NCBI RefSeq assembly: GCF_900188445.1
Contig: NZ_FZOR01000036.1
Coordinates: forward strand, 1-64,000
DNA from: Actinomadura meyerae
GTDB taxonomy: Bacteria; Actinomycetota; Actinomycetes; Streptosporangiales; Streptosporangiaceae
Direction of reading: 5' to 3'
DNA length: 64,000 nucleotides
The notes under the pieces: generated by a model
Database searches by the model: none
What the model was told of the DNA's origin: nothing
Seen by the model: the letters and a program-made list of their open reading frames with translations, nothing else
Made by a program: the position numbers and the translations under genes
Part shown: positions 2,594 to 59,230 of the stretch, one piece after another
Position numbering within the stretch: position 1 is the stretch's first letter
Layout of the letters: each line of letters opens with the position of its first letter

Positions 2594-3103
2594 CTACGAG
2601 GCGGGGTTCTGCTGGCCGTAGATGAGGGCGGGGGAGTTCTTGTAGTCGGTTTCGCGGAGGAGGCGGTGGCCGATGCGTTCGGCCACCGAGATGGAGCGCT
2701 TGTTCCCCGGACGGATGACCGAGATGACCTCGTCGGCCCTCAGGTCGGTGAAGCAGTAGGCGATGGCGGCGCGGGCCGCTTCGGTGGCGTAGCCCTTGCC
2801 CCAGTGCGGGCGGGCCAGGCACCAGCCCACGCCCAGACCCGGGAAACCGTGCGGCTGCCAGGGGCCTGCGCGTCCTATGAATCGGCCCGTGGCGCGTTCG
2901 ATCACGGCCCAGTGGGAGTAGCCGCGGATTTCTCGGTGCCCTATGAACAGGGCCAGGCTGCGCCAGGCGTCGGCGGGTGTGCGGCCGATCGGGTCGGCCA
3001 GGCCGTCCGCCACTTCGGGGTCGGCCATCATCGCGGCGTAGTCGTCGAAGTCGTCTCCGGTGAGGGGGCGGAGGGTCAGGCGTTCCGTTTCCAGGACGGT
3101 CAT
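2594..3103 (-). CDS. GNAT acetyltransferase, RimJ/RimL type
   Basis: A 169-residue GNAT enzyme that should transfer acetyl from acetyl-CoA to an amine. It opens with LETERLTLRPLTGDD, the usual start of the RimJ/RimL subgroup. The acetyl-CoA binding region reads RPHWGKGYATEAARAAI, matching the Q/RxxGxG/A pyrophosphate loop. The ATG lies two bases after the stop of the upstream SDR gene (TGATCATG), so the two are translationally coupled. The substrate cannot be told from sequence. Confidence 0.8.
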   Translation of the reverse strand: MTVLETERLTLRPLTGDDFDDYAAMMADPEVADGLADPIGRTPADAWRSLALFIGHREIRGYSHWAVIERATGRFIGRAGPWQPHGFPGLGVGWCLARPHWGKGYATEAARAAIAYCFTDLRADEVISVIRPGNKRSISVAERIGHRLLRETDYKNSPALIYGQQNPAS

Positions 3104-3105
3104 GA

Positions 3106-3987
3106 TCACAGTGTGCGCGGGCTCTGGAGGGTGAGGCCCGAGAGTTGCTCGCAGAGGCGCTGGACGGCCTCGGCGGTCTGTTCGTCGCGGGCTCCGGGCG
3201 GCCAGGGCACGCGCTGGAGTCTCGCGTTGACGTAGATGTCGGTGACGCCGTCCAGGGTGGGGCTCGCGGCCAGGTGGACGCTTGAGCGTGCCGCCTTTGC
3301 CAAGTCGTTCAGCAGGCGAGGGCCGAAGAAACGGATGAGCGGGGCCACGGGCCGGTAGGCGTAGGGGAATGCGCTGATCGCCGTGGCCTTGTTGCCCGGC
3401 GTGTAGGCGTGGCCGGGGTAGGCGACATTGACGGTGATGTCGTCGGGGGCTAGGTAGTCGGCCATCCTGCGGCTTACGGCCATCAGTGCTGTCTTTGCGT
3501 GGTTGTACTGGGAGAACGTCCAGCCCAGGTACTTCTTCTCGCCCTGGAGATTGGCGACGTCCAGGGGCTTGCCCGGGAACCCGCCGGTCAGGTTGACGAC
3601 GCGCGCCCCTTGCGTGGCGCGCAACTGCGGCAGGAGTCGGCACGTCAACGCGTAGGGCGCCAGGACGTTGAGGGCGAAGGTCCTTTCCACGCCATCTTCG
3701 GTGAGGGCGCGGGACGGGCTCATGCCGCCGGCGTTGTTCACCAGGACGTGCAGGTGGCTGTGCCGGTCCGCGATCTCGTCGGCCAGGCGGCGCACGCCGT
3801 TCAAGGTGGTGAGGTCGCCGGTGCAGGCGGTCGCTCCGATCTCGGCGGCGGCCGCCTCGGCCCGTCCGGCGTCGCGCCCGATGAGGATGACGCGGGCGCC
3901 GAGGCGTGCGAGTTCCCGCGCGGTCTCCTTGCCGATCCCGCCCGTACTGCCGGTCACCAGGGCGGTCTTACCGCTCATCGGTTGCAT
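3106..3987 (-). CDS. Short-chain dehydrogenase/reductase (SDR)
   Basis: NAD(P)-dependent oxidoreductase of the classical-like SDR family. The Rossmann motif TGSTGGIG is near the N-terminus, NNAG follows the central strand, and [10 protein letters not shown] carries a YxxxK-like catalytic element in which Asn-His replaces the usual residues between Tyr and Lys. It resembles the retinol-dehydrogenase/WWOX-like group. ATG 3987 is preferred because AGGAGG lies four bases upstream; ATG 3978 is the alternative. It is divergent from a TetR gene with a palindrome between, and is the first gene of an operon with the GNAT gene. Confidence 0.8.
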
Positions 3988-4005
3988 GACGCCTCCTGTC
4001 ATGTG

Positions 4006-4020
4006 TGGCACTTAGTGCCA
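4006..4020. promoter_or_regulatory. TetR-type operator between SDR and TetR genes
   Basis: TGGCACT (4006-4012) and AGTGCCA (4014-4020) form a perfect 7-bp inverted repeat around one T. It lies 19 bases before the SDR start and 35 bases before the TetR start. This is the usual position for an operator that lets the TetR protein control both divergent transcripts. A further half-site, GGTGCCA, lies a little downstream. Confidence 0.6.
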
Positions 4021-4055
4021 TACACGCTAACAGGTGCCAGAAGTATCCTCCATGC

Positions 4056-4655
4056 GTGAGCGGTGGAGAGCGGGCGGGGCTGCGGGAGCGGACGCGGCGG
4101 GCGGTTCGGGCGGAGCTGTCCGCGCTGGCGGTCGAGCTGTTCCTGGAGCGCGGCTACGAAAGAACGACGGTTGAGGACATCGCGACGGCGGCGGGGATGT
4201 CGCGGCGCAGCTTCTTCCGCTACTTCCCGTCCAAGGAGGACGTGGTCTTCGGCGAGGCCGGTGACGTCGCCGAACGGGTCGCCGACGCGATCCGCGATCG
4301 TCCCGGCGAGGAGGCGCCATGGGCGTGCCTGCGTGCGGTGCTGCGCGAATGGCAGGACGCGATCCACACGGTCGACCTGCGGACGCTCCGGCTGATCGAG
4401 GAGGCGCCCGCACTCCGGGCGCGGCTGCACGCCGAGCGTGACCGGATGCGCGAGCTGGTCAGCGCCGCGTTGCGGGAGCATCCCGGCGGAGTCGACGCCT
4501 TCACCGCCGACCTCCTCACCGGAGCGGCGGCCGCCGCCCTGGACGCCGCCGACCGGGAGTGGCTCCGCAGCGGCGGCACGGCCGACCGCGCCGCCCTGCT
4601 CGACCGCGCGTTCGGTGTGCTCAGCCTGCCGGGTGAGGGGCGTCCAGGTCCTTGA
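4056..4655 (+). CDS. TetR family transcriptional regulator
   Basis: A 199-residue one-component repressor. The N-terminal helix-turn-helix reads TVEDIATAAGMSRRSFFRYFPSKE, diagnostic of TetR. The C-terminal ligand-binding half is not assignable. I chose GTG 4056: a -10-like TATCCT at 4044-4049 ends six bases before it, implying a leaderless message, while upstream in-frame codons would start before any promoter. It probably represses the divergent SDR-GNAT operon through the palindrome at 4006-4020. Its 3' end overlaps the convergent GNAT gene by 35 bases. Confidence 0.8.
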   Translation: MSGGERAGLRERTRRAVRAELSALAVELFLERGYERTTVEDIATAAGMSRRSFFRYFPSKEDVVFGEAGDVAERVADAIRDRPGEEAPWACLRAVLREWQDAIHTVDLRTLRLIEEAPALRARLHAERDRMRELVSAALREHPGGVDAFTADLLTGAAAAALDAADREWLRSGGTADRAALLDRAFGVLSLPGEGRPGP

Positions 4656-5118
4656 CGTAGCGGTGGACGGGGACGTTGACGGTGCCGGACGCGGTCGGGG
4701 CTTGGTAGGTCATGAGGCCGGTGTCGCGCCAGCCGTGGAACTCGTAGAAGCGGCGGGCGCGCGTGTTGCCGGGGACCACCGCGAGCCACGTCTGTGTATG
4801 CCTGCCCTGGAAGCGGTCTTCCGCGGCTTGTAGCAGCGCGCCGCCCACGCCCCGGCCTCGGGCCGACTCGTCGACGGCGAGCTGGATGACCTCGCCGTCA
4901 TCGTCGCCGAGGATGATCAGGCCGAGGATCCCGTCGGTGGGATCGGCCGCGACGAGCGTGGAGCCCGCGTACTTCTCGATGTGGGACGCGAAGTGGTCGG
5001 GGCCGCGCGCGTCCATCAGCGCTGCGGGGACGTGGCCGGTGTGGCCGTCGAGCCACGCCGCTCGCCACAGCGGTGCGAGCACCGGCAGGTCGGCGGGTTC
5101 GGCCGGTCGGACGATCAT
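4621..5118 (-). CDS. GNAT family acetyltransferase
   Basis: A 165-residue GNAT enzyme. The acetyl-CoA loop is RGRGVGGALLQAAE, and the motif B region NTRARRFYEFHGWR is typical of the family. The ATG overlaps the stop of the upstream MerR gene by four bases (ATGA), so its translation depends on ribosomes finishing MerR in the correct frame. That matters because the MerR tail contains a 14-bp tandem array. The substrate is unknown. Confidence 0.8.
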   Translation of the reverse strand: MIVRPAEPADLPVLAPLWRAAWLDGHTGHVPAALMDARGPDHFASHIEKYAGSTLVAADPTDGILGLIILGDDDGEVIQLAVDESARGRGVGGALLQAAEDRFQGRHTQTWLAVVPGNTRARRFYEFHGWRDTGLMTYQAPTASGTVNVPVHRYVKDLDAPHPAG

Positions 5119-5639
5119 CGGGTCACCTTTCTCGGGCGGTGCGGCTCGGACGGTGCGGCTCGGACGGTGCGGCTCGGACGGTGCGGCTCGGACGGTGCGG
5201 CTCGGACGGTGCGGCTCGGACGGTGCGGCTCGGGCGGTGCCGGGTGTGCGGCGCCGGGGTCGGTGTCGCGAGGTGGGACGCCTATCTCGGCGGCCAGGCG
5301 GTTGCGGAGGGCGAGCAGGCGGGTGATCTCGGTGTCGAGGGCGGCGAGGCGGCGTCGGGCGGTGCCGCCGGTGCTCTGCGCGCAGGCGGGGCCGTCGTAG
5401 GGCGGGAGTTCGTCGCCGTCCAGGAGGTGGAGCCGGTCGGCGCAGCCGCGGACATCCTCGATGGTGAGACCCAGGGACAGCAGCCGGCGGATGGTCCGGA
5501 CGCGGGCGACGTCGGCCGGGTCGTACCGGCGCTGCCCGCTGGACGTGCGCGCCGGCGGCGGCAGCAGGCCGCGCTGCTCGTAGAAGCGCAGCGCCCGCGG
5601 GGTCGTCCCGGCCGCCGCGGCGGCGTCGCCGATCCGCAT
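5115..5639 (-). CDS. MerR family transcriptional regulator with repeat-bearing tail
   Basis: A 174-residue MerR-type activator. The winged-helix DNA-binding region covers residues 1-70 (RIGDAAAAAGTTPRALRFYEQRGLL, here split: RIGDAAAAAGTTPRALRFY then EQRGLLPPPART, with a QRRYDPADV wing). A coiled-coil dimerisation helix follows. The last ~40 residues are an Arg/Pro/Ser tail built from a 14-residue repeat (PSRTVRAAPSEPHR) encoded by a 14-bp array at 5137-5234. The gene starts 14 bases after the upstream oxidoreductase stop and overlaps the GNAT start. Regulators of this layout usually control the adjacent oxidoreductase. Confidence 0.8.
   Translation of the reverse strand: MRIGDAAAAAGTTPRALRFYEQRGLLPPPARTSSGQRRYDPADVARVRTIRRLLSLGLTIEDVRGCADRLHLLDGDELPPYDGPACAQSTGGTARRRLAALDTEITRLLALRNRLAAEIGVPPRDTDPGAAHPAPPEPHRPSRTVRAAPSEPHRPSRTVRAAPSEPHRPRKVTR
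5137..5234. repeat. 14-bp tandem array inside the MerR coding sequence
   Basis: Six exact copies of CGGTGCGGCTCGGA run head to tail from 5137 to 5220, and a seventh with one final change ends at 5234. Because 14 is not a multiple of three, gain or loss of one unit would shift the MerR reading frame before its stop and its overlap with the GNAT start. Three units encode one 14-residue peptide repeat. Confidence 0.95.
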
Positions 5640-5653
5640 GGGTCCCCCTCCGG

Positions 5654-6661
5654 CTACGGTTCCACGATGACGGCGCCCAGGTGCTGTCCGGCGATCAGAT
5701 CGTGCAACGCCCGCGGGGCGTTGTCGATGCCCGTGACGCGTGCGTGCGGGAAGGTGACGTCGCCCGAGCGCAGCCAGTCGCCGAAGTGCTTCGCCCACGG
5801 GACGTCGGCGTCGAGTCCGGCGAAACCGCGCATCTCGACGCTCTTGGCGATCAGCTGGAACGTGTCGATCTCGACAGGGGCGGTGGTGCCGGTCAGGTTC
5901 GGTGCGAGCTGCCCGGCCAGGGTGCCCACCAGGACGAAGCGCGCGCCCGGCCGGGCGGCGGCGATCGCGGCCCGCAACTGCTCTCCGCCGACGTTGTCCA
6001 CCAGGACGTCGATGCCCTCCGGTGCTGCGTCCGCCAGTTGTGCCGAGATGGGGCGTTCGCCGCGGACCAGGGCCGCGTCGTAGCCCAGTTCGCGCAGCAT
6101 GCGGTCGGCCTTGTCCCGGGAGCCGGTGCTGCCGATCACGCGGCCCGCGCCGAGGCGCCGGGCGAACTGACCGGTCAGCGAACCGACCCCGCCGGAGCCG
6201 CCGGACACGAACACCGTGTCGCCGGGGCGGAGCCGCGCGTCCCTTGTCAGTGACGCGTACGCGACGCCCGCCTGGCCGAGGTGGGCGGCCGGGTCGGGGA
6301 GCGTGTCGTCCAGCGGCGTGCACTCGGCGGCCGGCATGACGGCGTGCTCGCGCCAGCCGAGCCAGTGCCGCACCAGGTCGCCGGGGTGCAGGCCGGAGCC
6401 GGGCGGCGCCGCGACGACCTCGCCGACCGCCGCGCCGAACAGCGCGTCGCCCGGACGCAGTGGCGGGAAGGGGGTGCCCTCCACGCCGCCGCCGATCAGG
6501 GTGCGCAGCGAGGGAAAGACCTGGAAGAAGCGGTTGCGGACGAGCACCTCGCCTTCGCCGGGCGCCGGGACGGGCTCCCGGACGACGGCGAAGTGCTCCG
6601 GCCCCGGCAGCCCGTCCGGCACGGCGGCGAGACGGACGATCCGGGACTTGTAGGACGGCAT
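5654..6661 (-). CDS. NADP-dependent MDR oxidoreductase (zinc-independent, CurA/PTGR-like)
   Basis: A 335-residue medium-chain dehydrogenase/reductase of the zinc-lacking leukotriene B4 dehydrogenase/CurA group, which reduces alkenal or enone double bonds with NADPH. The N-terminal substrate domain includes PGEGEVLVRNRFF. The cofactor domain has VSGGSGGVGSLTGQFAR, a variant of the AxxGxxG nucleotide loop. No zinc-binding Cys/His cluster is seen. It leads an operon with the MerR and GNAT genes. Confidence 0.8.
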   Translation of the reverse strand: MPSYKSRIVRLAAVPDGLPGPEHFAVVREPVPAPGEGEVLVRNRFFQVFPSLRTLIGGGVEGTPFPPLRPGDALFGAAVGEVVAAPPGSGLHPGDLVRHWLGWREHAVMPAAECTPLDDTLPDPAAHLGQAGVAYASLTRDARLRPGDTVFVSGGSGGVGSLTGQFARRLGAGRVIGSTGSRDKADRMLRELGYDAALVRGERPISAQLADAAPEGIDVLVDNVGGEQLRAAIAAARPGARFVLVGTLAGQLAPNLTGTTAPVEIDTFQLIAKSVEMRGFAGLDADVPWAKHFGDWLRSGDVTFPHARVTGIDNAPRALHDLIAGQHLGAVIVEP

Positions 6662-6717
6662 CGGACACTCCTCAAGGGTGAGGTTCCGGGCGCGGCACCC
6701 GGAAGCGCGCCGTGACG

Positions 6718-8136
6718 CTATTCGCTGACCCGCACGTCAGGGTCAAGCCCCGCGGGACGCTCGGGCGGGGTCGCCGGGCGCTTGGGCGGGGTCAGGGCGG
6801 CGGCCGCCAGGGCGGCGACGGCGGCGGCGATCGCGGCCAGGACGAAGCCGTCGGTGAAGCCGTCGAGGGTGTCGCCGGTGAGGCTCGCGGCGGCGACGCT
6901 GGAGATCACCGCGGCGCCGATGGACGCGCCGAACTCGTGGAACGTGCTGACGATGCCGGACGCGATGCCGGATTCGTGCGGTGCCACCTGCCCCAGCGTG
7001 GTCGCCGACGCGACGACGAACATCGCGCCCGTGCCGGCGCCCGCCACCGCCGTGCCGATCACGACCGACACCGGGTTCAGGGACAGGACGGGCAGCGCCA
7101 TGCCCAGCGCGGCGGTGAGCAGGCCGATCACGGCCGGGCGGCGGGCGCCGGCGGTGGCGATCGTCCGGCCGGTGACGTTGGCGCCGGCCATCGTCGCGAC
7201 GGCCACCGGCAGGAACAGCAGGCCGGTGCGCAGGGCGCCGTAGTCCTCCGCGTGCTGGAAGTAGAACGTGCCGAGGAAGAACACCGCGATCATCAGGGCG
7301 GTCGCCATCAGGATCAGGAAGGTGCCGGTCGCGACCGGCCGCCTGACGAGGAGCGCGAGGTCCATCATCGGCGAGCGCGCGGTCCGCTGCCGGACGACGA
7401 ACGCCAGGTAGCCGAGCGCGGCGAGCAGGACCAGCACGCCGGTCGCGGCGGTGAGCCAGCCGCCGTCGCCGGCGCGGATGAGCGCGTAGATCAGCGAGCC
7501 GGACGAGGCCGTGACCAGGACCGCGCCGAGCACGTCCAGCCGGGGCCGGGGCGCGGTGACCGGCTGGGACGGCAGCATGCGCGCCAGCGCCGCGATGATC
7601 ACCACGCCGATGGGGACGTTGACGAAGAAGACCCACGCCCAGCCGGGGCCCGCGGTCAGCGCCCCGCCGAGCAGGACGCCCAGCGCGGCGCCGCCACCGC
7701 CGAGCGCCGACCAGATGCCGAGCGCCCGGTTCCGCTCGTCGCCGTCGAACAGGCCGACCACCAGGGAGAGCGCGGAGGGGGAGAGCAGCGCGGCGCCGAG
7801 CCCCTGCGCGACGCGTCCGCCGATCAGGACCTCGGCCGATCCGGCTAGGCCGGTGGTGAGGGACGCGGCGGTGAAGACCAGGAGCCCGACGAGGACGACG
7901 CGCTTGGCGCCGATGAGGTCGGCGGTCCGGCCGCCGAGGAGCATCAGCCCGCCGAACGTGAGCGTGTAGGCGCTGACCGTCCAGGTCACGGCCTGGCGGC
8001 TCAGGCCCAGGTCGGCCTCCATGTGCGGCAGCGCGATGGCCACGACGGTGACGTCCAGGATCAGCATGAGCTGGGCCACACCCAGAAACCCCAGGATGCG
8101 CCAGCGCAGCGGGTGCGCCGATGTCTGCTCTTGCAC
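6718..8136 (-). CDS. MFS drug exporter, DHA2 (EmrB/QacA) family, 14 TM
   Basis: A 472-residue proton-driven exporter. The motif LDVTVVAIALPHM in the first transmembrane segment and TLTFGGLMLLGGRTADLIG (motif A) are diagnostic of the DHA2 family; about 14 hydrophobic segments follow. GTG 8136 is preferred because AAGGAGG sits five bases upstream, even though the frame is open to 8835. It is divergent from a TetR gene, with matching palindromes between them, so it is probably a drug-inducible efflux pump. The substrate is not predictable. Confidence 0.85.
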   Translation of the reverse strand: MQEQTSAHPLRWRILGFLGVAQLMLILDVTVVAIALPHMEADLGLSRQAVTWTVSAYTLTFGGLMLLGGRTADLIGAKRVVLVGLLVFTAASLTTGLAGSAEVLIGGRVAQGLGAALLSPSALSLVVGLFDGDERNRALGIWSALGGGGAALGVLLGGALTAGPGWAWVFFVNVPIGVVIIAALARMLPSQPVTAPRPRLDVLGAVLVTASSGSLIYALIRAGDGGWLTAATGVLVLLAALGYLAFVVRQRTARSPMMDLALLVRRPVATGTFLILMATALMIAVFFLGTFYFQHAEDYGALRTGLLFLPVAVATMAGANVTGRTIATAGARRPAVIGLLTAALGMALPVLSLNPVSVVIGTAVAGAGTGAMFVVASATTLGQVAPHESGIASGIVSTFHEFGASIGAAVISSVAAASLTGDTLDGFTDGFVLAAIAAAVAALAAAALTPPKRPATPPERPAGLDPDVRVSE

Positions 8137-8151
8137 CGTGTCCTCCTTAAG

Positions 8152-8203
8152 TCGTACACCTTCATACGATTTCTTGGAGAGTAACACGTACTGCGGTGTA
8201 CGA
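8152..8203. promoter_or_regulatory. Paired TetR-type operators between exporter and TetR
   Basis: TCGTACACC (8152-8160) and GGTGTACGA (8195-8203) are an exact 9-bp inverted repeat. Each half is also part of a local palindrome: TCGTA/TACGA at 8152-8169 and CGTAC/GTACG at 8187-8202. The right one overlaps the promoter region of the TetR gene and the left one lies just upstream of the exporter ribosome site, consistent with repression of both genes. Confidence 0.6.
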
Positions 8204-8217
8204 GTTAGGATGCGGGC

Positions 8218-8796
8218 ATGCCCACCGCCTCCTCCGGCCGCCGCCGGCGCGCGGACGCCGAGCGCAGCATCGCCCGCATCGTGTCCGCGGCCCGCAAGTG
8301 CCTGAGCGCCGACCCGAACGCGAGCATCGACGACATCGCCGCGGCCGCCGGCGTCGGCCGGATGACGCTCTACGGCCACTTCCGCAACCGGCGCGAACTG
8401 GTCGAGGCCGCCCTCACCGACGCGCTCCGCGCCGGTGAGGAGGTGCTGTCGGACGTCGATCTCGACGGGCCCGCGCGGGACGTGCTGGGCCGCCTGCTCG
8501 AATCGAGCTGGGCGCTCGTGGCCGAGTCGACCGCGCTGCTGGCGGCGGCCCAGGGCGTCCTCCCCGCCGGACGCATCCGGGAGATGCACGCCGGGCCCGC
8601 GAAGCGCGTCGAGGGGCTGGTCCGCCGAGGCCAGGACGAGGGCGCCTTCCGCACCGACATGCCGCTCGAATGGCTGGTCAACGTCGTGCAGTACGTCCTG
8701 CACGGGGCCGCGGAGGAGACCCGCGCCGGCCGGTTGCGGCCCGAGGAGACCGGCCGGGTCGTGATCGCGACCGTCCAGTCCATCCTGGCCGCGTAG
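8218..8796 (+). CDS. TetR family regulator of the adjacent exporter
   Basis: A 192-residue TetR repressor. The helix-turn-helix reads SIDDIAAAAGVGRMTLYGHF. The C-terminal half resembles the TetR_C domains found beside drug pumps but has no specific signature. TAGGAT at 8206-8211 ends six bases before the ATG, so the transcript is probably leaderless. The divergent exporter and the operator pair between them make it the likely local repressor. Confidence 0.8.
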   Translation: MPTASSGRRRRADAERSIARIVSAARKCLSADPNASIDDIAAAAGVGRMTLYGHFRNRRELVEAALTDALRAGEEVLSDVDLDGPARDVLGRLLESSWALVAESTALLAAAQGVLPAGRIREMHAGPAKRVEGLVRRGQDEGAFRTDMPLEWLVNVVQYVLHGAAEETRAGRLRPEETGRVVIATVQSILAA

Positions 8797-8873
8797 CGGC
8801 GACCGGCGGCGGGCGGGACGCCGGGCGAGTGTCATGGGGCGCGGCCGGACGGTCCGGCGGGCAGGATGGCGGG

Positions 8874-24780: not shown

Positions 24781-25656
24781 ATGGGATACCCCCCACCCCC
24801 ACCCGCCGGTCCAGGCGGCCCCGGCTACGGTCCACCGCATCCGGGCTATGGCCCTCCCCAGCCGGGCCACGCCCCGGCTCCGCCCGCACAGCCCGCCCAG
24901 CCCTACGCGCCGCAGCCCGGGTACGGATATCCACCGCAGCAGGGCGGCTACCCGCCCCAGCAGGCCGGGTACCCGCCCCAGCAGGCGCCTTACGCGCCAC
25001 CCCAGCAGGGCGGCTACCCGCCGCAGCAGCCGCAGGTCCCCCAGCAGCAGGGGTTCCCCGACCTGTACGGCGCGCCGATCCTCGTCTACGACCAGCCGGC
25101 GCAGTTCTTCTCGACCGAGGCGAACTACACGATCTGGAGCCCGCAGGGGCAGCCCGCGGCCTACGTCCGGGAAGAGGGCGTGAGCGGTGCGAAGAAGGCG
25201 TTCCGCGTCCTCAACCAGGCGAGCCAGACCAAGGCCGAGCGGAAGCTGACGATCTACCGCCCCGACGGGATGCCGTACTTCCTCTTCTACAAGCCCTACG
25301 GCTTCATGGGCACGCCCCAGATGCAGGTGCTCACCCCGCAGGGCGGTCTCATCGGGCACCTGCGCAAGCGGGCGCTGCGCGGCTGGGAGATCCTGACCGC
25401 GCAGGAGCGCCAGATCGGCTACTACGAGCTGCTGAGCGGGCGGATCACCGACTGGCAGCAGCAGGAGCTGGCCCGCATGCAGCGCGGCTTCGACGGCTAC
25501 GGCGAGTTCCTGTCGCAGATGTTCACCGGCGCCGACCGCTACGTCCTGCAGATGCACGTCCAGCCGCCCGAGCCGATGCGCACCCTGATCCTGGCCTGCC
25601 CCCTGGCCTTCGACACCGCCGTCTCCCAGAACCGCAGCATCGGCGGCTGGATCTAG
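24781..25656 (+). CDS. Scramblase/LURP-like protein with Pro/Gln-rich N-terminus
   Basis: A 291-residue protein. Residues 1-90 are low complexity, with a repeated GGYPPQQ/AGYPPQQ motif. The rest is a tubby-like beta-barrel of the phospholipid-scramblase/LURP-one kind: ANYTIWSPQGQPAAYVRE, YRPDGMPYFLFYK and the closing DRYVLQMHVQPPEPMRTL with AFDTAVSQNRS. In bacteria the role is unknown; lipid interaction is inferred from family only. Its stop codon begins a five-copy 15-bp repeat. Confidence 0.7.
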   Translation: MGYPPPPPAGPGGPGYGPPHPGYGPPQPGHAPAPPAQPAQPYAPQPGYGYPPQQGGYPPQQAGYPPQQAPYAPPQQGGYPPQQPQVPQQQGFPDLYGAPILVYDQPAQFFSTEANYTIWSPQGQPAAYVREEGVSGAKKAFRVLNQASQTKAERKLTIYRPDGMPYFLFYKPYGFMGTPQMQVLTPQGGLIGHLRKRALRGWEILTAQERQIGYYELLSGRITDWQQQELARMQRGFDGYGEFLSQMFTGADRYVLQMHVQPPEPMRTLILACPLAFDTAVSQNRSIGGWI

Positions 25657-25830
25657 CCGCATCGGATGGAGCCGCATCGGATGGAGCCGCATCGGATCCG
25701 GCCGCATCGGATGGAGCCGCATCGGATGGCGGCGCCGTCCAGGCCCCGCGGTGCCGCCACCCGATGCACCCTTCTGCGCGTGGATGCACCCCTCTGCGCG
25801 CGTGAACGATTCAGGGCGTGAACGAGTCAG
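25655..25830. repeat. Nested short tandem repeats starting at a stop codon
   Basis: AGCCGCATCGGATGG, with few changes, occurs five times head to tail at 25655-25729 and starts on the last two bases of the TAG. A 20-bp duplication (GATGCACCCYTCTGCGCGYG) follows from 25763, and GCGTGAACGANTCAGG is duplicated near 25797-25830. Confidence 0.9.
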
Positions 25831-40238: not shown

Positions 40239-41359
40239 TCCCCTTCGAGGACCTGCTCTGGGTCGCCTGGTACTCGGTGCTCGCCGCGTGCACCGTGGCG
40301 GCAGCGGCGCTCGCCGTGCTGTACGCCCTGCGCGACCGCTCGGTCGCCACCCAGCTCGTCGTCGTGGGCGTGGCGACGGTGCTGGCGACGATCTCCGGCA
40401 TCATCGTGATCTCCTTCATGATGGTGCTGAACGACCATGACCGGTCGGTCGTCCTCGCGGTCGTGGCGGCCGCCGGCGTGGTCGCGATGGCGGTGTCGGT
40501 GCTGCTCGGGCGCCGCCTGGTGGCCGCGAACCGCACGCTCGTGGAGGCCGTCCGGGCCGACCGGTTCCGGCCCCCGGCGGCGCGCCTGCCCGCCGAGCTG
40601 GCCGAGCTGTCCCGCGAGCTGGAGGCCGCCTACGACCGGCTCGCCGCGTCCCACGAGCGCGAGCAGGCGCTGGAGGCGAGCCGCCGCGAGCTGGTCGCCT
40701 GGGTGAGCCACGACCTGCGGACCCCGCTGGCCGGGCTGCGCGCGATGGCCGAGGCCCTGGAGGACGAGGTCGTCGCCGACGCGCACACCGTCCACCGGTA
40801 CCACGGCCGCATCCGCGTCGAGGTGGAGCGGCTCGCGGAGATGGTGGACGACCTGTTCGAGCTGTCCCGGATCCACGCGGGCGCGCTGCGGCTGTCCCGC
40901 GAGCGCGTCGGCCTCGCGGACCTGGTCGCCGAGGCGGTCGCGGGCACCGAGGCGCTCGCCCGCGCGAAGGGCGTGCGGCTGCGCGGCGACGCCCGCGAGG
41001 GGCTGCCCGTCCAGGTGGACGCGGGGGAGCTGGGCCGCGCGCTGCGCAACCTCGTCGTCAACGCGATCCGGCACACCCCGAGCGACGGCGCCGTGGAGAT
41101 CATCGGCGAGGTCGCGGACGGGGAGGCGCGGGTGACGGTCGCCGACGCCTGCGGCGGCATCCCCGAGGACGACCTGCCGCGCGTGTTCGACGTCGCGTTC
41201 CGGGGCGAGGCGGCGCGCACCCCCGGCGGCGGCGCCGGTCTCGGGCTCGCCATCGCCCGCGGCATCGTGGAGGCGCACGCCGGGCACATCGGCGTCGCCA
41301 ACGACGGGCCCGGCTGCCGCTTCGAGGTCCGCCTCCCCCTGACCGCCGTCTCCCCCTGA
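40235..41359 (+). CDS. Membrane sensor histidine kinase
   Basis: A 374-residue kinase. Two or three N-terminal membrane spans fill residues 1-90 (LLWVAWYSVLAACTVAAAALAV, given as its start LLWVAWYSVLAAC, then further spans). The H box is WVSHDLRTPLAG, the N box LRNLVVNAIRHTPSDG, and the G boxes DACGGIP and GAGLGLAIARG. There is little extracellular sequence, so it may sense a membrane signal. It phosphorylates the co-translated OmpR-type regulator. Its stop codon is repeated in a 17-bp array. Confidence 0.85.
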   Translation: MIPFEDLLWVAWYSVLAACTVAAAALAVLYALRDRSVATQLVVVGVATVLATISGIIVISFMMVLNDHDRSVVLAVVAAAGVVAMAVSVLLGRRLVAANRTLVEAVRADRFRPPAARLPAELAELSRELEAAYDRLAASHEREQALEASRRELVAWVSHDLRTPLAGLRAMAEALEDEVVADAHTVHRYHGRIRVEVERLAEMVDDLFELSRIHAGALRLSRERVGLADLVAEAVAGTEALARAKGVRLRGDAREGLPVQVDAGELGRALRNLVVNAIRHTPSDGAVEIIGEVADGEARVTVADACGGIPEDDLPRVFDVAFRGEAARTPGGGAGLGLAIARGIVEAHAGHIGVANDGPGCRFEVRLPLTAVSP

Positions 41360-41390
41360 CCGGCGCCTCCCCATGACCGGCGCCTCCCCA
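41340..41390. repeat. 17-bp tandem repeat spanning the kinase stop
   Basis: TGACCGGCGCCTCCCCA occurs at 41357-41373 and 41374-41390. An imperfect copy lies at 41340-41356 inside the gene. The kinase stop is the TGA that begins the middle unit. Confidence 0.85.
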
Positions 41391-41445
41391 TGATCGCCGT
41401 CGGCCCATGACCGTGCGGCCCCGCCCCTGACCGCCGTCCGGCGGG

Positions 41446-52253: not shown

Positions 52254-53060
52254 GTGGCCATGGACTTCGATCTCTACGAGCGGGAGCTGTGGGCCGGGCG
52301 CGCCCCCGCGTACGAGCGGGGGTTCGCCCGGTTCACCCGCTACCTGGCCGGTCCGCTGCTGGACGCCGCCGGGGTGGGCGCCGGGACGCGCCTCCTCGAG
52401 GTCGGGACGGGGCCCGGGTTCGTCGCGCTGGAGGCGGTCCGGCGCGGCGCCGAGGTGTCGGCGGTCGACGCCGAGGCGAGCATGGCGGAGGCGGCCGCGC
52501 GCAACGTCCCCGGGCTGGACGTGCGGGTCGCCGTCCTGCCGGAGCTGCCGTTCGGCGACGGGGCGTTCGACGCGGTCGCCGGCAACTTCGTCATCAACCA
52601 CGTGAGCGACCCGGCGACCGCGATCGGCGAGCTGCGGCGGGTGCTGCGGCCGGGCGGGCGGCTGGCGCTGAGCTGCTGGGTGATGCCGGGCAGCGGGGCC
52701 CTCGCCATCGTCCGGGAGGCGATCGAGCGGGCCGGCGTACCGTGGCCGGACGACATCCCCGAGCCGCCGTTCCTGCGGTACGGGGAGGCGACGGCGTTCC
52801 GGCGGCTGGTCGCGGAGGCCGGTATCGCCGAGGTGGCGGTCGAGGAGGTCACCTGGGAGCACGTCGTCGACCCCGAGGAGTGGTGGGAGACGGGCGCGCT
52901 GTCCAGGGTCGGCACCAACGGCGTCATCGTCGGGCGCCAGGACGCGGAGACCGTCGCCCGCATCAAGGACGCCTACGACACGATCATCGCCGGGTACCGG
53001 GCTGACGGCGGCAAGGTCGCGCTGCCCGCGCACGCGCTGCTGGCCAGCGGCGTCCGGTAG
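52254..53060 (+). CDS. Class I SAM-dependent methyltransferase
   Basis: A 268-residue enzyme of the UbiE/Methyltransf_11 type. Motif I is LLEVGTGPGFVALEA, motif II VSAVDAEASM, and AFDAVAGNFVINHV matches motif post-I/III. The substrate is unknown. GTG 52254 follows TAGGCT by six bases; ATG 52260 is the alternative. A 13-bp repeat containing the stop codon follows. Confidence 0.82.
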   Translation: MAMDFDLYERELWAGRAPAYERGFARFTRYLAGPLLDAAGVGAGTRLLEVGTGPGFVALEAVRRGAEVSAVDAEASMAEAAARNVPGLDVRVAVLPELPFGDGAFDAVAGNFVINHVSDPATAIGELRRVLRPGGRLALSCWVMPGSGALAIVREAIERAGVPWPDDIPEPPFLRYGEATAFRRLVAEAGIAEVAVEEVTWEHVVDPEEWWETGALSRVGTNGVIVGRQDAETVARIKDAYDTIIAGYRADGGKVALPAHALLASGVR

Positions 53061-53086
53061 CCGCGTCCGGTAGCGGCGTCCGGTGG
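53050..53086. repeat. 13-bp tandem repeat spanning the methyltransferase stop
   Basis: GCGTCCGGTAGC recurs at 53050 and 53063, and GCGTCCGGTGG at 53076, with a 13-bp period. The first unit contains the TAG stop and the second a further TAG. Confidence 0.85.
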
Positions 53087-57025: not shown

Positions 57026-59230
57026 GTGGCGAGGAACGAGCACGACGGGCGTTCCCTGGAGGAGCGGCTGGCCTCTCTGGACGCGATGAGCGGTGACACG
57101 GCGGCCCCGCCCCCGGAGGGCGAGCAGTCGGCGCGGTCCGCCCCCGCCGAGCAGGAGAACGCGCCGCCGGAGCCGCCGGCCGCGCCCGAGCCGCCCGCCG
57201 CGCCGGGGCCACCGCCGGCCGCGCCGGAGCAGCAGGGTGCCGTGCCGGAACCGCCGGCCGCGCCGGAACCGCAGGGGCCCGCGCCCGAGCAGCCGGGGCC
57301 GCCGCCGCCCGTCCCGGACAACCCCAACCCCTGGCTCGCGGCGCCGCCCGCCTTCCAGGGCGCCGCCCCCGAGAACACCGGCTTCGGCGCGGAGAACTTC
57401 GGCCCGCCGCAGCCGCCGCCCTACGACGGCGGCCCCGTCCCGCAGCCGTTCGACGGGGGCATGCTGCCGCCGCCGTACTACCCGGCTCCGGCCTACGACC
57501 CGACGCAGGTCCCGCAGCCGCCCCAGCCGCCGTACGACGCGGGCGACGACTCCGCCCCGCCCCTCGAACAGCTGCCGCCGTACCCGTCCGACCAGTTCGC
57601 GCAGCAGCAGAACGCCGCCGGGCAGTACCAGCCGATCGACCCCGCCACCGGGCAGCCCTACCCGCAGGACACCGACGACGCGGGCCGCCCCTACGTGCTG
57701 ATCGACCCGGCCACCGGCCGCCCGATGTCGCCCGACGTGATCGCCCCGCAGTTCCCGCCGATGCTCGACCCCGAGGCCGTCCAGCCGTACCCGCAGGACG
57801 CCAACGGCGCCGCCCAGCAGTACCCGCCGGCCGACCCGACGACCGCGCAGCCCTATCCGCAGGCGGATCCGAACGCCGGCCAGCCCTTTCCGCAGGCCGA
57901 CCCGAATGCCGCGCAGCCGTACCCGCCGGCTGACCCGAATGCCGCGCCGCCGTACCCGCCGGCCGATCCGACCACCGCGCAGCCCTATCCGCAGGCCGAC
58001 CCGAACGCCGGCCAGCCGTACGCGCCGCCGCCCGTCCAGTACCCGCAGCCGTACCCGCAGGTCGACCCCAACACCGGCCAGCCGTACCCGCAGGTCGACC
58101 CGGCCACGGGCCAGCCCTACCCGCAGGACCCCAACGTTCAGGCGCAGCAGTACCAGCAGATCAACCCGGCCACCGGCCAGCCCTACGTGCCCATCGACCC
58201 GAACACCGGGCAGCCCTACCCGGGCTACGGCCCGCAGCAGGGGCAGATGACGCCGCCGGGGCACACCGCCCCGCCGCAGCAGGAGCCGCAGAACACCGAC
58301 AGCCTCAGCTCCGAGAACCTCCTCGGCGAGCGCCGCATCGCGCCGTCCTCCGGGTGGCGGCGCGCGGTCTACAAGGCGACCGCCGGAAGCATCCACCCCG
58401 GTGAGTCGCAGAGCGAGCTGCGCCGCAAGGACCTGATCGCGCGTGCCCGCACCCCCGTCGCCGGCGGGCACCACCGGGTGGCCGTCATGTCGCTGAAGGG
58501 CGGCGTCGGCAAGACGACGACCACCACCGGCCTGGGCTCCATGCTCGGCTCCTTCCGCGGCGACCGGGTCATCGCGGTGGACGCCAACCCCGACCGCGGC
58601 ACCCTCTCGGACAAGGTGCGCCTGGAGACCGCGGCGACCGTCCGCGACCTGCTCAACAACCGCGACAACATCCACCGGTACGCGGACGTGCGCGCGTTCA
58701 CCTCGCAGAACGAGGCGCGGCTGGAGATCCTCGCCTCCGACCGCGACCCGGCGGTCAGCGAGGCGTTCTCCGCCGAGGACTACGCCGCCGTCGCCGTCGT
58801 CCTGGAGCAGTACTACTCGGTCTGCATCACCGACTGCGGCACCGGGCTGCTGCACTCGGCGATGGCGGGCGTGCTGAGCCTTGCCGACCAGCTCGTCCTG
58901 GTCAGCTCCCCGTCGGTGGACGGCGCCCGCTCCGCGAGCGCCACCCTCGACTGGCTGGAGGCGCACGACCACGGGCACCTCGTCCGCAACGGCGTCGTCG
59001 TCCTGTCGATGGTCCGCAACCGCACCCGCAGCCAGGTCGACCTCGACAAGCTCCAGGCCCACTTCGAGAGCCGCTGCCGCGCGGTCGTCCGCATCCCCTA
59101 CGACGACCACCTGGAGGAGGGCGCCGAGGTCGAGCTGGAGCAGCTCGCCCCCGCGACCCGCGAGGCGTACCTGACCCTCGCCGCGGTCGTCGGCGACGGC
59201 TTCGCCTTCCAGCGCCCGCCCCAGTCCTGA
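57026..59230 (+). CDS. EspI-like protein: repetitive Pro/Gln region plus ParA/MinD ATPase
   Basis: A 734-residue protein. After a short polar start, residues 25-125 are Pro/Ala/Glu-rich and 125-410 are built of a ten-residue repeat of the QPYPQxDPNx kind. A MinD/ParA ATPase follows from residue 480: deviant Walker A LKGGVGKTTTTT, AVDANPDRGTLSD, and Walker B CITDCGTG. This layout matches EspI of mycobacterial ESX-1 and related proteins beside type VII systems, thought to regulate secretion. No ESX core gene (eccC, esxA) is in the window. GTG 57026 has GAGGGGG upstream. Confidence 0.78.
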   Translation: MARNEHDGRSLEERLASLDAMSGDTAAPPPEGEQSARSAPAEQENAPPEPPAAPEPPAAPGPPPAAPEQQGAVPEPPAAPEPQGPAPEQPGPPPPVPDNPNPWLAAPPAFQGAAPENTGFGAENFGPPQPPPYDGGPVPQPFDGGMLPPPYYPAPAYDPTQVPQPPQPPYDAGDDSAPPLEQLPPYPSDQFAQQQNAAGQYQPIDPATGQPYPQDTDDAGRPYVLIDPATGRPMSPDVIAPQFPPMLDPEAVQPYPQDANGAAQQYPPADPTTAQPYPQADPNAGQPFPQADPNAAQPYPPADPNAAPPYPPADPTTAQPYPQADPNAGQPYAPPPVQYPQPYPQVDPNTGQPYPQVDPATGQPYPQDPNVQAQQYQQINPATGQPYVPIDPNTGQPYPGYGPQQGQMTPPGHTAPPQQEPQNTDSLSSENLLGERRIAPSSGWRRAVYKATAGSIHPGESQSELRRKDLIARARTPVAGGHHRVAVMSLKGGVGKTTTTTGLGSMLGSFRGDRVIAVDANPDRGTLSDKVRLETAATVRDLLNNRDNIHRYADVRAFTSQNEARLEILASDRDPAVSEAFSAEDYAAVAVVLEQYYSVCITDCGTGLLHSAMAGVLSLADQLVLVSSPSVDGARSASATLDWLEAHDHGHLVRNGVVVLSMVRNRTRSQVDLDKLQAHFESRCRAVVRIPYDDHLEEGAEVELEQLAPATREAYLTLAAVVGDGFAFQRPPQS
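57635..58250. repeat. Degenerate 30-bp (ten-codon) repeat array
   Basis: About 18-20 imperfect units encoding QPYPQADPNAG, QPYPPADPNAA and similar. A longer block, PTTAQPYPQADPNAGQP, occurs twice (starting near 57836 and 57967), showing recent duplication. Units keep the reading frame. Confidence 0.85.

Follow-up and report, generated by a model that had tools for sequence, protein, structure and literature searches.

A 14-bp minisatellite at the MerR-GNAT junction of Actinomadura meyerae and the probable loss of a MerR stop into the GNAT leader

In the classical contingency loci of Neisseria and Haemophilus, out-of-frame states typically end the gene early. Repeats that change copy number are also on record for high-GC actinobacteria: tandem repeats in promoters of Mycobacterium tuberculosis are reported to change copy number at 10^-2 to 10^-3 per chromosome in isogenic populations (PMC12817950), and microsatellite indels are described as fusing and splitting open reading frames between mycobacterial genomes (PMC1501019). 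Neighboring genes on the same strand may come to overlap by stop loss, and the treatment by Fonseca et al. (2013, PMC3887535) gives 3' elongation as the commoner route. The spacing at such junctions bears on translational coupling, and in E. coli, according to the account in PMC12548453, coupling is generally best at spacings of -4 to +3. That account also lists exceptions: one study saw a roughly 30-fold drop between -4 and +3, and a halving is described between +3 and +5. In one systematic study covered there no effect was seen across -4 to +25, yet the top value fell at -4. Spacing appears stricter in L. lactis and B. subtilis than in E. coli, in a section of the same source that deals with E. 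coli and others rather than with actinobacteria (PMC12548453). Here we describe a locus at which a tandem repeat, a 3'-extended gene and a four-base overlap coincide.

The locus lies in the window, by which we mean the whole stretch of 64,000 nucleotides analyzed (Actinomadura meyerae, contig NZ_FZOR01000036.1, positions 1 to 64,000), and the genome of the window, G000 in our comparisons, is an 8.57-Mb draft of 120 contigs. An operon-like run on the minus strand holds, in order, a DHA2-like MFS transporter (6718..8079; profile matches and the gene order of relatives), an MDR-family oxidoreductase with ADH_N_2 and ADH_zinc_N domains (5654..6661; a conserved neighbor of MerR by Pfam and orthologue loci), a MerR-family regulator of 174 aa (5115..5639), and a GNAT acetyltransferase of 165 aa (4621..5118; Pfam Acetyltransf_1). 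The N-terminal helix-turn-helix of MerR is clearly present (MerR_1, PF13411, 81.8 bits against a cut-off of 21.6), and its MerR-DNA-bind match scores 25.3 bits, just under the cut-off of 25.4; all 16 of the NCBIfam MerR subfamilies listed (CueR, ZntR, SoxR and others) fall far under their curated cut-offs. The MerR stop overlaps the GNAT start in the sequence ATGA (5115..5118, minus strand), and a Shine-Dalgarno-like sequence of GNAT, AAAGGTGA, lies at 5123..5130 on the same strand, directly after the array described below. At its other end GNAT converges on a TetR-family gene (4056-4655, plus strand), with a 35-bp overlap of the two 3' ends at 4621-4655.

The array itself occupies 5131-5240 on the minus strand (TRF: period 14, 7.9 copies, 97% matches, score 206) and encodes MerR residues ~134-170. 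Its sense unit, CCGCACCGTCCGAG, contains no stop codon in any frame, as judged by three-frame translation. Unit-by-unit comparison finds six exact units of CTCGGACGGTGCGG at 5145..5228 (minus strand), flanked by a unit with one mismatch at 5131-5144 and one with two mismatches at 5229-5242, and diverged edges around identical inner units are what slippage is expected to leave. The array is far beyond chance expectation: when the complete 64-kb window was dinucleotide-shuffled 100 times, no TRF score exceeded 97. Its unit number may be off, given the 120-contig draft. An earlier sequence-only reading had placed a 14-bp array at 5137-5234, in the last third of the MerR gene, and had noted the ATGA overlap of MerR stop and GNAT start; the array is real, being the same repeat in another phase and slightly short of the full extent, and both its position and the overlap are borne out. 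Elsewhere in the window, at 57772-58222, TRF reports a long array with units of 33, 66 and 99 bp, all multiples of three.

That reading had gone on to propose that losing or gaining one unit would change the MerR tail, move its stop and break coupling with GNAT, giving on/off variation in a population. We therefore compared the frames by varying the unit number in silico from -6 to +6 units (13 states). With the present number of units, n, MerR ends in ATGA at a spacing of -4 to GNAT. With n+1 units it ends at a TGA held within AAAGGTGA, which leaves 4 nt to the GNAT ATG (a +4 gap), and with n-1 units MerR has no stop of its own and runs in frame into GNAT as a fusion of 334 aa. The two genes are joined in a single open frame at -4, -1, +2 and +5 units (320-362 aa). 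The MerR core, the GNAT ATG and the upstream AAAGGTGA are retained in all 13 states, and a search of these states for an off state by premature stop found none in which the MerR core is cut short or GNAT is lost. The repeat peptide of 14 residues is identical in every frame apart from its rotation, since 14 and 3 are coprime. The first part of the proposal thus holds in these predicted frames: a single non-triplet unit more or less alters the end of the tail and moves the MerR stop, and n-1, n and n+1 give three distinct MerR ends. The on/off part finds no support, since the three frames amount to a -4 overlap, a +4 gap or a fusion, with the GNAT ATG and AAAGGTGA in place throughout, and we reject frame-based on/off switching over the range of -6 to +6 units. 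A shift in copy number could still alter the strength of any MerR-GNAT coupling; as it stands, the array is better seen as a probable by-product of slippage than as a proven switch.

Comparison with relatives places the array outside the conserved part of MerR. Our genus search covered 65 Actinomadura genomes, that of the window included, and found 25 loci beyond the window's own (L002-L026) at which a close MerR orthologue adjoins the oxidoreductase, the oxidoreductase match being only partial at L019 and L024. At L026 MerR is cut by the contig end, with almost no flank after it, and this locus was left out of the length count. All 24 complete orthologues end at 121-159 aa, compared with 174 aa in the window, and the part of the protein that is conserved among them ends near residue 120. 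MerR in the window is thus longer than its genus orthologues and ends within the start of the next gene. From the orthologue matches and their ends we distinguish a conserved core, residues 1-120 (5280..5639, minus strand), from a lineage-specific tail, approximately residues 121-174 (5115..5279, minus strand), which appears to consist of the former gene end, the GNAT leader and the array. The core shows only a moderate signal of purifying selection: comparison with 12 of the 24 complete orthologues gave pN/pS values of 0.35-0.61. A broader, partly redundant set of 105 loci, made up of the 25 from the genus search and 80 kept of 177, includes total MerR lengths of up to 202 aa (L128), and the 14-bp array is absent from all 105, genus orthologues included. 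Two of these 105 loci carry unrelated non-triplet arrays that start at most 6 bp from the MerR stop (13-bp units at L020 and 17-bp units at L022).

The juxtaposition with GNAT is similarly restricted. No GNAT match was found in the ~1.5-kb flanks of the 25 MerR orthologue loci (L026 having almost no 3' flank), and G000 is alone in having MerR and GNAT side by side, among the matches listed. Conversely, the examined flanks of the 19 other GNAT homologues in the genus search contain no match to this MerR, and GGTGA lies at most 18 nt from the start in 10 of the 19. Thus a GNAT of this type needs no preceding MerR.

Two sister genomes bear on how the tail came about. In the first, G053, BLAST aligns to window positions 2604-5152 and 6764-8799 at 89% and 92%, and the stretch of the window between these two matches (5153..6763) is represented by 31 bp. 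Compared base by base, some of these 31 bp correspond to the far flank of the array (~5229-5272), which implies that the oxidoreductase, the MerR core and about six units are missing there. G053 accordingly lacks MerR, and its MFS and GNAT genes adjoin. The DNA before its GNAT gene can be aligned with the window's MerR tail to either side of the array; for the far flank, the match score was equalled in 9 of 5000 base shuffles and in none of 4700 genomic 51-mers. When the G053 leader was aligned to the window with the array cut to different lengths, the best local score, 95, was reached with two units (one unit, 56; three units, 82; four to eight units, 76). A shorter array of ~2 degenerate units thus stands at the homologous site, and because G053 is without MerR its leader shows the length of the array and not how MerR ended there. 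With ~2 units compared with 8 in the window, the number has changed between species, in agreement with this part of the earlier proposal.

Both sisters also have stops where the MerR extension begins. The TGA that ends the G053 MFS frame lies in the far flank of the array and aligns, in side-by-side sequences, with codon D127 (GAC) of MerR at 5259..5261 on the minus strand. In the second sister, G013, a stretch collinear with the window over ~17 kb holds a remnant consisting of oxidoreductase residues 1-89 followed by MerR from residue 64, ending LAAELDV-TAA, and this TAA aligns with codon P122 (CCA) of MerR at 5274..5276 (minus strand). No GNAT was found at the remnant locus, the best G013 match being on another contig of an assembly that is fragmented (~800 contigs) and carries 7% contamination.

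The G053 alignment made an insertion of the oxidoreductase-MerR pair in G000 seem likely at first, and this is now the less likely course, given the G013 remnant and the gene order of five other genomes. We favor a history in which G053 lost the pair and G013 retains it in decayed form, because the pair sits behind the same MFS gene in those five genomes (MFS-oxidoreductase-MerR in G007, G008, G024, G028 and G050). A possible alternative is that the pair was inserted into an MFS-GNAT junction and that the MerR stop was lost at that junction and not in place. G022, G047 and G049, in which MFS stands beside GNAT without the pair, would fit such an insertion, whereas the pair remnant kept in G013 and the order shared by the five genomes speak against it. 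Under either history, the aligned sequences identify the MerR tail as old gene end plus GNAT leader.

We also asked how arrays of this kind are distributed, in a census of 1,016,598 bases of G000, 400,000 of G008 and 460,000 of G053 (1.88 Mb), with genes taken from a crude in-house codon-score caller and arrays from TRF (units of 9-30 bp in 3 copies or more, with 85% or more matches, no more than 3% indels and a score of 70 or higher). Of 51 arrays, 22 were coding and 29 non-coding or mixed. Units were triplet in 21 of the 22 coding arrays, the sole non-triplet one being the MerR array that prompted the census, and in 13 of the 29 others, the remaining 16 being non-triplet. The rarity of non-triplet units in coding arrays suggests that the MerR array belongs, by unit length, to the intergenic kind. 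Furthermore, 35333 of 44857 intergenic 14-mers (78.8%) are free of stops when repeated, so that an array open in three frames needs no selection. The non-coding arrays cluster at gene stops, with 20 of 29 at most 15 bp away (null mean 5.2, maximum 13 in 300 runs), and show no such excess near starts (2 of 29 at most 15 bp away; null 6.3, range 1-12); examples in the window are found at 25655-25729, 41329-41413 and 53046-53084. Many of their units contain a stop codon, and part of the excess at stops may be made by the caller, since a stop-holding array ends the frame it meets.

The 14-bp unit is not entirely confined to the window. In G000 the unit pair (28 bp, at most 3 mismatches) occurs at this array only, and we therefore rejected a dispersed repeat family or MIRU-like mobility. 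Similar unit pairs occur in two of the 64 other genus genomes, G015 and G063, and in one of 280 further genomes of the order (G222), or 3 overall among the 344 genomes of the order other than G000. Those of G015 (L058, 1503-1582) and G063 (L059, 1495-1554) are 14-bp arrays with a near-identical unit, located between same-strand genes. Two further 14-bp arrays of G000, taken as controls, were without a match in the remaining 64 genus genomes; something may favor these sequences or places, although this comparison involves two controls only.

Taken together, we consider it probable, from these sequence comparisons, that the MerR stop was lost into a slippage-expanded GNAT leader, whose minisatellite now serves as MerR coding sequence. 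A minisatellite would have expanded by replication slippage in the leader, between the old MerR end and AAAGGTGA, and the MerR stop, formerly near residue 122-127, would have disappeared. No frame of the leader or of the 14-bp unit holds a stop, so the MerR frame now runs through both to the first stop met, the TGA inside ATGA, yielding a 53-residue Pro/Arg-rich tail in which the repeat peptide is the same whatever the frame. Further changes in copy number would cycle the junction through overlap, short gap and MerR-GNAT fusion without removing either protein, and cycling through these spacing states would perhaps alter the strength of coupling. We infer slippage as the process, as well as the order of stop loss and expansion; the stop would have gone by a point change or at a rearrangement. 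The array presumably grew in the window's lineage, and recent growth is suited by diverged edges with an identical center, contraction in G053 being the other possibility. The tail would be tolerated rather than selected, and selection might still act on it.

Several other explanations deserve weighing against stop loss into an expanded leader. One is that slippage alters MerR or GNAT expression enough to act as a population switch. The perfect inner units, the non-triplet period and the change from ~2 to 8 units between sister species would be expected of such a switch, phase-variable promoter repeats are reported from M. tuberculosis (PMC12817950), and a shift from -4 to +4 could weaken coupling, given the ~30-fold change between -4 and +3 described in one case (PMC12548453). 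Against this, neither gene is abolished in any frame, GNAT keeps its own Shine-Dalgarno-like sequence, none of the 24 other complete genus orthologues has such an array, and -4 to +3 is the efficient range in most of the E. coli studies covered by the same source (PMC12548453); we regard a switch of this sort as unlikely. It is quite unlikely, too, that copy number is selected for toggling between two separate proteins and a MerR-GNAT fusion, even though the single frame of 320-362 aa at -4, -1, +2 and +5 units and the frame-invariant linker peptide would be well suited to that purpose: the fusion follows mechanically from a leader that is open in the GNAT frame, 79% of intergenic 14-mers are stop-free when repeated, and among the matches listed no genome but G000 has the genes as neighbors. 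We hold in equally low regard the related notion that each slippage step turns the junction through overlap, short spacing and fusion with a frame-independent PSEPHRPSRTVRAA linker. If true, it would mean an acetyltransferase-tethered regulator in a third of copy-number classes, with neither domain ever lost.

It also seems very improbable that the array acts at the level of DNA or RNA, by protein binding, as a terminator or in Rho loading, with its coding incidental. The clustering of non-coding arrays at gene 3' ends (20 of 29 at most 15 bp from a stop, null mean 5.2) and the C-rich, weakly structured sense strand of the array (C 0.51, G 0.29; z +2.0 and +2.4) could be read in this way. However, the 20 stop-adjacent arrays equal control 3' flanks in mean C, G and folding (622 flanks for C and G content, 100 of them sampled for folding), no terminator-like site is present in 4500-6900, and the unit sequence varies between array loci. 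Strong folding was seen in 2 of the 20 stop-adjacent arrays (z -5.3 and -4.7). A terminator, Rho or hairpin role was rejected for the MerR array, which folds worse than its shuffles, all 200 of 200 folding at least as well (z +2.4). The least credible explanation, to our minds, is that the copy number is an assembly artifact, the real number of units being lower or higher and the frame perhaps different. A 110-bp array in a 120-contig draft invites the suspicion, but 110 bp should fit within an ordinary short read, and both flanks appear to be single-copy.

If the MerR stop was indeed lost into an expanded leader, the two sister genomes let one read how a slippage-prone intergenic gap becomes protein. 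The locus also offers a test case for slippage of a unit that is open in three frames, in which tail, spacing and fusion vary without truncation. For annotation it serves as a warning against taking the final third of this MerR for a conserved domain.

Among the open-licence papers listed in our searches, we found no account of this array or of stop-anchored arrays in Actinomadura, and each part of the case is already known in kind from the sources cited here (PMC12817950, PMC1501019, PMC12548453, PMC3887535). The sequence-only reading had held that contingency loci of this kind are rarely described in high-GC actinobacteria, a statement that needs qualifying in view of the promoter repeats and open reading frame fusions reported in PMC12817950 and PMC1501019. 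As with those repeats, a change of copy number at the MerR junction could alter expression or fuse reading frames in a high-GC actinobacterium; the M. tuberculosis promoter repeats vary within a population (PMC12817950), whereas for the MerR array the difference is one between two species. As in the stop-loss overlaps of PMC3887535, the upstream gene is 3'-extended to a stop inside the downstream gene, although the MerR extension differs from those overlaps in being long and repetitive and in coming from what we take to be a slippage-expanded 14-bp array. Mycobacterial MIRUs, as described in PMC12548453, are likewise open-frame repeats whose end overlaps the following start at a spacing of -4 nt (ATGA-type). 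They are apparently mobile and insert at start codons, and they carry their own open reading frame (PMC12548453), whereas the MerR unit pair has a single site in G000 and its array extends an existing gene. Finally, with a period of 14 inside the MerR gene, the array resembles the contingency loci of Neisseria and Haemophilus as a non-triplet repeat within a reading frame, and it differs from these classical cases in that all three MerR frames are open to the end of the gene.
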